Shown here piece by piece: positions 8,451 through 11,255 of a stretch of DNA of 18,763 nucleotides (position 1 is the stretch's first letter; each line of letters begins with the position of its first letter). The notes under the pieces were generated by a model that was given only the letters and a program-made list of their open reading frames with translations, did not search any database and had not been told where the DNA came from. The position numbers and the translations under genes were made by a program. Source of the DNA: Deltaproteobacteria bacterium (GTDB lineage: Bacteria; Desulfobacterota; GWC2-55-46; DRQE01); contig DRQE01000005.1 in assembly GCA_011371515.1 (NCBI GenBank), positions 1 through 18,763 of the forward strand, given 5' to 3'.

Positions 8451-10094
8451 CTACTCGTGGCAGCTGCGGCAGAGCTCTGTCTCTTCTTTTCTTAGCACAT
8501 AGGGATGCTGGCTTCCATGGGACATATGGCATGTAACGCATAGCATCCTTCCACCACTTCCGAGTGGCAGCCCGCCAGACACTGTCGGGGTAACATCCAC
8601 CATCGGATGGGATGCCTTAAGGTGTATACTCCCTCTGTGACACTCACCACACACATAGAAGCCTGCCTCGTTGATACTCTTAAGCCCCGGGTAATGGGGA
8701 TTGGAAAGGTCTTTCCTTGAACCGGTGCTCATTATACCAATAGATATGGTCCCCTCTCGTATTCCATTGCTCTTCCACATGAGTGCCCATCTGTCTTTCA
8801 CCCTTAAGAGTTTGAGCCCCTCTATAGAGGGCAGCCCTGTGGCATCCTTCTTGGTGGTGTAGGCTTTCTTCACCTTTATCTTAACAGTATCTGAGTGCGC
8901 CTTTCTACCGTAGGGGTCCTCGGCAACTGCCCTGATGTAGTACTTCTTACCCCTTCTCAGCTTCTCTATAACTGTCCTGTGTTCTGTTGCATAATGTGTG
9001 GATGAGCGCGAAACATTACCCAGCCTTCGGCTCCTTCCGTATTCTATGTAAGAGCGGGCAGGTTTGTCGGTCTTCCATCTTACCGTTACAGAGTAGAAGA
9101 CCCCCTCTCTCACCTCTACCACCTCTGGCGTGGAGACCTGTGGAGCCTTACCATCATCGGAAAGCTCTACTGCATCCTGTGATGGCACCACCCTCAATGT
9201 CTCTGACGATGCTTCCCTGCCAAAGGAGTCTTTTCCCCTTACGGCTATGGAGTAGCTGGGATCGTCTTCCAGCTCTAAAAAGAATATGTTATCTCCCCAG
9301 CCGTCTTTGAACCTTATTAGTTTCCTCTTCTCTGCATCTTTTATGTGGCATCTGGTGCAGTTGAGCAATATATCGGGGTGTTTGTATCTTGAGGCATCCA
9401 CATACACCGGCCTGTGGCAGTCCTTGCAACCCTCTTCAGTCATGGTGGCAACCATATTGACGGGCACATCTGTTCTTGCAATGAGCTCTTCCACATAATA
9501 GTCTGGAACCTTCTGTGGTGGGGTGGGCAGACCCTCTGGGCCTACCTGCGTCATATAGCCCGACTCTATGCGCACGGTGTTGCCTGTACCTTCTGTGCCC
9601 TGCACATCCACGGTGCCATCCAGCGAGACCACCTCCGTGGCATCTTCCATGGAATTTACCACAAAGTCTGTACCCAGAACCCTTACAAGGGCTGCCTGAC
9701 TCTTGAGCTCAAGGTACGAAGCGTCTGTAAAGTGTCTGCCCGCAATGGTTCTTACCGTGCCTGCTACAATACGCAGCGAAAGCCTTCTTTTAGCGTCATC
9801 AAGACTGAGGGAGTCCACACACAGGCTGCCACCTTCACCCATGGCAACGATAGTGTCATCTGCCAGAAGTATCTTGACCGCAGACTCATCGTCTGTGGTT
9901 ATTATATCGCCCTCTCTTATGGCTGTGGTGTCTTCAACGCGTATCCTTTTCGACTCACCCTCTCTGTATATGTAGACGTTACCTTTCCATGTAACAACGA
10001 TACCCGCGTACTGTGTCTTTTCCGCCCCGACGCTTTTCTGAAGAAAAGACACAAGCAGGAGGCTTAAGACCGTAAGAAGAACCGTCTTTTTCAT
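8451..10094 (-). CDS. Secreted FecR-domain / fibronectin-III-like / pentahaem c-type cytochrome fusion
   Basis: Periplasmic or extracellular protein of 547 residues. Visible order: signal peptide (MKKTVLLTVLSLLLVSF, cleavage near 24); FecR-like domain at about 30-185 (TAIREGDIITT, VRVLGTDFVV, SLDGTVDV); two haem sites CKDCH (223-227) and CTRCH (246-250); a beta-rich stretch with a fibronectin-III-like repeat at about 320-408 (ARSYIEYG, LRRGKKYYIRAVAEDPYG); then CGECH (482-486), CVTCH (519-523) and CRSCH (542-546), ending one residue later. The last three sites resemble doubled CXXCH cytochrome motifs. Function is inferred: an electron-transfer or redox-sensing surface protein. The ATG is nine bases after the citrate synthase TAA, behind AGGAG at an unusually short 3-base spacing. 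It ends in TAG. Confidence 0.85.
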   Translation of the reverse strand: MKKTVLLTVLSLLLVSFLQKSVGAEKTQYAGIVVTWKGNVYIYREGESKRIRVEDTTAIREGDIITTDDESAVKILLADDTIVAMGEGGSLCVDSLSLDDAKRRLSLRIVAGTVRTIAGRHFTDASYLELKSQAALVRVLGTDFVVNSMEDATEVVSLDGTVDVQGTEGTGNTVRIESGYMTQVGPEGLPTPPQKVPDYYVEELIARTDVPVNMVATMTEEGCKDCHRPVYVDASRYKHPDILLNCTRCHIKDAEKRKLIRFKDGWGDNIFFLELEDDPSYSIAVRGKDSFGREASSETLRVVPSQDAVELSDDGKAPQVSTPEVVEVREGVFYSVTVRWKTDKPARSYIEYGRSRRLGNVSRSSTHYATEHRTVIEKLRRGKKYYIRAVAEDPYGRKAHSDTVKIKVKKAYTTKKDATGLPSIEGLKLLRVKDRWALMWKSNGIREGTISIGIMSTGSRKDLSNPHYPGLKSINEAGFYVCGECHRGSIHLKASHPMVDVTPTVSGGLPLGSGGRMLCVTCHMSHGSQHPYVLRKEETELCRSCHE

Positions 10095-10103: not shown

Positions 10104-10292
10104 TTATCCTCTCTCTGCTATGGGAATGTATGGCTGTTTTCTTTTACCGATATATTTCTGTGTAGGCCTGTATATACGGTTTGTCTGGAGCTGTTCTATC
10201 CAGTGTGCGAGCCACCCTGCAACCCTGCCCATGGCAAATATGGGTGTGAATAGCTCTGTGGGTATGCCGATACCTGTAAATACTATACCAGA
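10104..10292 (-). pseudogene. gltA: 3' part of citrate synthase beyond an in-frame TAG
   Basis: Beyond the TAG at 10293-10295 the same frame stays open for 62 codons to TAA 10104-10106 and encodes the expected citrate synthase C-terminus: SGIVFTGIGIPTEL, then MGRVAGWLAHWIEQ with the conserved active-site Arg, then NRIYRPTQKYIG. Adding it gives 383 residues, the normal length for bacterial citrate synthases of this type. The TAG takes the place of the Tyr in the family motif NVDFYSG, one base from TAT or TAC. No start codon or ribosome binding site would let this part be made alone. It is either joined to the upstream part by readthrough, disabled by a mutation, or the TAG is a sequence error. 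Confidence 0.85.
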
Positions 10293-11255
10293 CTAGAAGT
10301 CCACATTTGGATAGAGCCTTTTGTGTGCCAATTTCTCCTCCACCACCTTTTCCACCTCTTCGGCAATCTCCAGCAGATGGGTAGACTCCGCACCTTCATG
10401 GTCGAACAACCTGTGGGCAAACTTTTGCAAAAGCCTTGCCCTTGGGTCTTTTGTCTTGTATACCCTGTGGCCTATACCCATTATACGCTCTTTGTTTTTG
10501 AGTTTCTCCTCTATGTAGGGGCGCACATTCTCTTTCGAGCCTATCTCCTTAAGCATATCCACCACCTTCTCGTTAGCACCGCCATGGAGGGGACCCGAAA
10601 GTGTGCCTATTGCAGAAGATACGATTGTATATGGGTCTGCAAGGGTAGAGCCCACAACCCTTGCACTGAATGTGGATGCATTCATCGTGTGATCTGCATG
10701 GAGTATCAAGATTACGTCTATTATCTTCTCCACCAGTGGATCAGGCTCTTTCTCAAAGAGCATGTAGTAGAAGTTTGCAGGAAAAGAAAGGTCATTGTTT
10801 GGCTGTATCGGTGCATCGCCGTGGCGAAGCCTGTGGCAGGCTGCCACAATGGTTGGAAGTTTTGCTATAAGCCTTACTATGGACCAGTATCTTACCTCAG
10901 GGTCCAGTGTGTTCCTTGCCGGGTAATACATGCCCATGGCAGAGGTTACGGACTGCAGATAGTCCATTGGATGGCCCGTCTCTGGCAGATACTCCATCAT
11001 CCTGAGTATCTTGAGCTTCAATCTTGTATGAAGGGTTATGTCGTTCTTAAAACGGGTGAACTCCTTTATGGTTGGAAGTTTGCCGAATATGAGAAGATAT
11101 GCCACCTCAAGGAAGGTGCTGTGTTCCACAAGCTCTTCTATTGGTATACCTCTGTACTCAAGGATACCCTTCTCTCCATCTATGTAGCTTATTGCAGACT
11201 CGGCAGCAGGTATACCCTCAAGCCCTGGGACAACTTCCATCTCTCTTTCTTCCAT
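10293..11255 (-). CDS. gltA: Citrate synthase, first 320 codons, ending at an in-frame amber stop
   Basis: Condenses oxaloacetate and acetyl-CoA to citrate in the TCA cycle. Type II-like bacterial citrate synthase motifs are clear: EGIPAAESAISYIDG at the N-terminus, ILHADHTMNAST (184-195), GPLHGGANE with His224, GIGHRVYKTKDPR with His263, and YPNVDF with catalytic Asp319. The frame then meets TAG (10293-10295) where Tyr is conserved; the remaining 62 residues follow in frame (10104-10292). A 320-residue product would keep three catalytic residues but lose the last active-site Arg and the C-terminal helices, so it should be inactive unless TAG is read through. The start is ATG 11255 behind GGGGG; ATG 11240 (M6) is an alternative. 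The cytochrome gene follows in the same operon. Confidence 0.9.
   Translation of the reverse strand: MEEREMEVVPGLEGIPAAESAISYIDGEKGILEYRGIPIEELVEHSTFLEVAYLLIFGKLPTIKEFTRFKNDITLHTRLKLKILRMMEYLPETGHPMDYLQSVTSAMGMYYPARNTLDPEVRYWSIVRLIAKLPTIVAACHRLRHGDAPIQPNNDLSFPANFYYMLFEKEPDPLVEKIIDVILILHADHTMNASTFSARVVGSTLADPYTIVSSAIGTLSGPLHGGANEKVVDMLKEIGSKENVRPYIEEKLKNKERIMGIGHRVYKTKDPRARLLQKFAHRLFDHEGAESTHLLEIAEEVEKVVEEKLAHKRLYPNVDF

Follow-up and report, generated by a model that had tools for sequence, protein, structure and literature searches.

Some deltaproteobacteria use pyrrolysine. Such organisms, like genomes in which TAG has been reassigned, share with the locus described here an in-frame TAG inside a conserved gene. 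A second class of comparison is provided by interrupted coding sequences, lone lesions in conserved genes that may be errors or authentic: in Mycobacterium smegmatis, Deshayes et al. (2007; PMC1852416) re-sequenced 73 interrupted genes and traced 28 of them to sequencing errors. Finally, Belinky et al. (2021; PMC7918605) propose on dN/dS grounds that in-frame stops in bacterial genes are frequently read through, with a focus on stops common to two or more species. In the literature searched, no paper joins citrate synthase and a premature stop codon with metagenome-assembled genomes, and a search on amber suppression or stop reassignment in metagenome assemblies brought up phage and code-engineering work.

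The locus considered here comes from an uncultured bacterium known only as a draft genome, 92.2% complete, whose 200 contigs total 1,303,883 bases. Within the window, which is the whole stretch of 18,763 nucleotides that was analysed, a type II citrate synthase gene is interrupted by one TAG. Like the M. smegmatis cases, this is a lone lesion in a conserved gene; it differs in being a nonsense codon in a metagenome draft, whose strain is not simply re-sequenced. Like the stops described by Belinky et al. as under purifying selection, it has low dN/dS on both sides, but it was seen in one genome only. Most likely it is an isolated single-base event, either a draft base error or a very recent nonsense mutation, and not a change of the genetic code.

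A TAG codon within a citrate synthase frame

The minus-strand frame from 11255 to 10104 runs from ATG to TAA and encodes a single citrate synthase apart from the one TAG. The features are as follows:

10104..11255, minus strand: type II citrate synthase gene with a single internal TAG; 383 codons, then the TAA terminator
10296..11255, minus strand: codons 1-320, 5' of the TAG, containing His224, His263, and Asp319
10293..10295, minus strand: in-frame TAG, codon 321; Tyr in 28 of 29 relatives, His in 1 of 29
10107..10292, minus strand: codons 322-383, 3' of the TAG, containing Arg344 and Arg363
8451..8453, minus strand: TAG as terminator of the neighbouring gene (8451-10094), called a cytochrome gene in the sequence-only reading

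That reading, made before any database search, took the frame to be one citrate synthase of 383 residues, and family profiles bear this out: the two pieces, searched separately, match the same families in register. They cover positions 3-316 and 318-378 of NF010639 (379 positions), and positions 1-312 and 314-357 of PF00285. Homology to type II citrate synthase, by NF010639 and TIGR01800, spans the full length of the frame, and the top matches of the same-genus protein among solved structures, which cover residues 10-382, are citrate synthases. No uninterrupted frame here reaches the curated cut-offs: the truncated frame scores 463.9 bits on NF010639, below the cut-off of 502, and 346.1 bits on TIGR01800, below 421.3.

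The frame carries the motifs GPLHGG and GHRVYK. His224, His263, and Asp319, which we take to be the catalytic residues of citrate synthase, precede the TAG; Arg344 and Arg363, presumably involved in substrate binding, follow it. Asp319 and the two arginines are identical in all 30 aligned rows. The gene is therefore like other type II citrate synthases (NF010639, TIGR01800, PF00285) in its register, its presumed catalytic residues, and its C-terminal arginines; it differs in its one in-frame TAG, at which the decoded product stops. Termination there ends the protein at residue 320, with loss of 62 residues including both arginines. A stop at codon 321 of 383 truncates a conserved protein, as in a pseudogene; the relaxed selection and further lesions also expected of a pseudogene were not found in this frame.

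The TAG stands in the context NVDF-stop-SG, with Asp319 two residues upstream, and a one-letter change in the DNA separates it from an amino-acid codon. The motif and its tyrosine had been named in the sequence-only reading, and the relatives agree. Among 29 citrate synthase genes of relatives, that of the same-genus genome G001 included, the site codon is TAT in 15, TAC in 13, and CAC in 1, so it encodes tyrosine in 28 and histidine in one and is never a stop. Likewise, the best 80 of 311 named-genome loci, which partly overlap the genomes of the 29-gene set, have TAT (40), TAC (38), or a His codon (2), and no stop; three of the 80 (L181, L201, and L223) were omitted by the motif test and were read by eye. 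The G001 citrate synthase is intact, with tyrosine at the site and 94% identity over the frame, and the contig that encodes it also carries relatives of other window genes.

TAG as a terminator in the draft genome

The neighbouring gene ends in TAG, as the sequence-only reading had noted, and it is the only one to do so among the 18 window genes whose ends were checked (citrate synthase by its terminal TAA); TGA or TAA closes each of the rest. A wider survey took 59 contigs, which with 390,813 bases make up about 30% of the draft, and compared them with 1,140,825 bases of G001. Alignments were dropped if they had less than 50% identity, fewer than 10 differences, or less than half of their differences at third positions, or if they overlapped a higher-scoring alignment. 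This left 240 coding-like alignments, among which some shadow frames remain, comprising 74,433 codons. Where the gene end agrees with G001 (212 genes), the terminator is TAA in 85, TGA in 76, and TAG in 51. A first survey of 41 contigs agrees with the larger one (TAG at 21 of 82 concordant termini). A longest-frame variant gave TAG at 45 of 187 termini; it missed the citrate synthase, picking an antisense frame instead.

In-frame stops were then judged by a two-sided test that required at least four differences on each side, half or more of them at third positions. Two stops passed. One is the citrate synthase TAG; the other, on L103, was rejected as a second case, being the antisense shadow of a 427-codon frame. 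The remaining stops, judged by the test alone, failed it; most are close to where their alignment begins or lack third-position bias around them. The citrate synthase TAG is the sole confirmed two-sided stop in the 74,433 aligned codons, and a stop with a coding pattern on both sides is more than chance.

These results bear directly on whether TAG is decoded as pyrrolysine or has been given a sense meaning throughout the genome. Neither the disappearance of TAG as a terminator, nor the loss of release factor 1, nor, in the contigs compared, many conserved in-frame TAGs were found. TAG ends about a quarter of the compared genes, and release factor 1 is intact (561.7 bits over positions 3-358 of 361, with no internal stops). 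General recoding, already thought unlikely in the sequence-only reading, is rejected on these grounds. The use of pyrrolysine by other deltaproteobacteria speaks for that amino acid. However, the pyrrolysyl enzyme PylS is above cut-off in none of 59 genomes, among them this one, about 8% of which may be missing. The weak match in this draft reaches 23.8 bits, where the cut-off is 178.15. Matches of that kind are widespread, with 53 of the 59 genomes having one, as do 13 of the 14 control genomes; one of the controls passes the cut-off. The site, moreover, is tyrosine in nearly all relatives examined. Pyrrolysine, which the sequence-only reading had listed among its options, is accordingly rejected; together with general reassignment it is already contradicted, and we regard the chance of either as negligible.

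A suppressor tRNA is a separate matter. None of the 14 tRNA genes found in the draft has a CTA anticodon, but tRNA-Tyr was also not found, which makes this a weak test. ARAGORN, applied to 62 contigs including the window, found five tRNAs, all within the 14 and none with CTA. A pattern search for CTA tRNAs gave four matches, against 25 for a reversed-pattern control. One of the four falls in a known tRNA-Trp gene (anticodon CCA), and ARAGORN finds no tRNA around the other three; these candidates were rejected. With the G001 tRNA-Tyr as query, only tRNA-Ser genes were matched in the draft. The draft is rated 92% complete yet yielded 14 tRNA genes; G001 has 39. Because the draft is this poor in tRNAs, a suppressor could lie in its missing part, and the corresponding option of the sequence-only reading is only partly addressed by these searches.

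Error and readthrough as possible explanations of the stop

Selection on either side of the TAG was compared with G001 by the Nei-Gojobori method. Codons 1-320 give a dN/dS ratio of 0.044 and codons 322-383 one of 0.037, values that come from one species pair. Four further relatives were also compared, but their rows were left out: synonymous change is mostly saturated in them, and L160 appears to lose register following an indel. The alignment has 124 columns that do not vary among the 29 other rows, 22 of which lie 3' of the TAG, and the TAG-bearing gene alters none. In the same comparison, G001 and L005 alter none of their own columns, L012 alters one, and L015 alters two. There is no frameshift or further lesion in the citrate synthase frame, which runs on to its terminal TAA, in keeping with the earlier impression that nothing else in the gene was decayed. 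Since the gene is otherwise undamaged, with low dN/dS and no shift, the stop is recent, or not real, or passed by the ribosome. The conservation measures, which may mostly reflect the time before the stop, do not choose among the three.

Other drafts of the group provide a base rate. Citrate synthase was matched, in some cases partially, in 49 genomes, and in three of these the gene is interrupted: by TAG in the present draft, by TAA in G021, and by a frameshift in G035. The G035 frameshift lies in the last third of the gene (G035:C3:26312-27351, L243) and is seen as three out-of-frame TAGs. G021 has one TAA in citrate synthase (G021:C13:2620-3681, L242) and another in an aconitase-family gene (G021:C60:1944-2789, L282); two of the three gene families surveyed thus carry a stop in this one draft, which suggests errors in it. 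A draft of the same family as the present one has a single in-frame TAG in its aconitase gene (G003:C12:38510-39349, L281), in the context VRT-stop-LSVSYVDHN with the frame open on both sides. At least two aconitase-family rows, those of G003 and G021, have one stop each among the matches listed; phosphoglycerate kinase has none in 55. An excess of broken citrate synthase genes in the group is not claimed, the numbers being small, some of the matches partial, and the drafts uneven in quality. Because other drafts show isolated stops in conserved genes, such stops are not peculiar to this citrate synthase.

The explanation that we favour, at slightly better than an even chance, is a lone consensus error: the assembly is a fragmented metagenome draft, and at this single base it would show either a wrong letter or that of a minority strain. 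The living population would then most likely carry a sense codon at this site and make an ordinary full-length type II citrate synthase. That the base is wrong we infer from several observations: the draft is fragmented and poor in tRNAs; coding constraint continues across the stop; no second lesion appeared in the sampled genes; the same-genus gene, the 28 other relatives, and the best 80 named-genome loci have no stop here; and isolated stops occur in G021 and G003. The M. smegmatis re-sequencing supplies a precedent. There are also difficulties. The aligned coding sequence amounts to about 220 kb, and a single stop within it would imply roughly 1e-4 substitution errors per base, a rough figure that assumes that about 5% of random changes create a stop, and this is high for a well-covered short-read consensus. 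Split matches, which would mark frameshifts, were not seen in the alignments of the genome with G001. Moreover, a recent, real nonsense mutation would look identical.

A real TAG that is partly read through, by a near-cognate Tyr-tRNA or an amber suppressor tRNA, would yield a little full-length enzyme. Low dN/dS persists past the stop, as in the proposal of Belinky et al., and a suppressor could be among the many tRNAs not found. But the draft encodes an intact release factor 1, the searches turned up no CTA tRNA, and a strong suppressor would be expected to disturb the 51 concordant genes that end in TAG. No examined relative has a stop at the site, and so there is no sign of the stop being kept; the dN/dS values, from their single species pair, may mostly predate it. 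We consider readthrough improbable. Still less probable, to the point of being far-fetched, is a more specific version: that an amber codon is kept in the sole citrate synthase of a possibly autotrophic bacterium and is partly read as tyrosine. In that case UAG readthrough would hold back the cycle in its oxidative direction, and an ATP-citrate-lyase-like enzyme would work in the reductive direction. A central enzyme made by readthrough would be of note if this were true, but nothing points specifically to such a mechanism.

Other citrate enzymes and possible loss of citrate synthase

A search with PF00285 found no second ordinary citrate synthase in the draft, a possibility that the sequence-only reading had raised. 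The only other match, on contig C184, is an ATP-citrate-lyase-like protein of 906 amino acids. Its first part resembles the citryl-CoA synthetase small subunit and the succinyl-CoA synthetase alpha subunit, and its later part is citrate-synthase-like. An adjoining frame of at least 291 amino acids resembles the large subunits of ATP-citrate lyase and citryl-CoA synthetase. The pair (L241:12078-15692) may be an unusual ATP-citrate lyase and as such hints at a TCA cycle run reductively. G001, G050, and G053 likewise have frames, each of about 910 codons, that match PF00285 weakly.

Citrate synthase is not universal among these genomes. Of the 59 genomes of the group, 10 have no match. When the count is restricted to the 42 genomes with completeness of 90% or more and contamination of 5% or less, 7 have none. 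Several genomes without a match are rated 93-100% complete (G048, G054, G055, G056, and G058). The gene may thus be absent from some members of the class, and its loss there is conceivable.

This gives some weight to the other main explanation, a real and very recent nonsense mutation, which we consider a serious possibility though somewhat short of even. Because translation ending at residue 320 removes Arg344 and Arg363, the enzyme would probably be dead. The loss may be tolerated because of the lyase-like enzyme, with which the organism may run the cycle reductively. One lesion per 212 concordant genes would, in addition, be an ordinary rate for pseudogenes. Against this, there is no decay 3' of the stop, so that the mutation would have to be young. 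G001, moreover, has a lyase-like protein yet keeps an intact citrate synthase; because it has both, the lyase does not make citrate synthase superfluous there, and a lyase-like protein alone does not explain the loss.

Of the options that the sequence-only reading had listed, an error and a recent mutation thus stand, and pyrrolysine falls. If the favoured consensus error is the answer, the case counsels caution about stop codons in draft metagenome assemblies, and about annotating citrate synthase as lost on their account. If the mutation is real, the genome would show the loss of citrate synthase just as it begins, and would do so in a class of which ten of 59 genomes gave no match to the gene.
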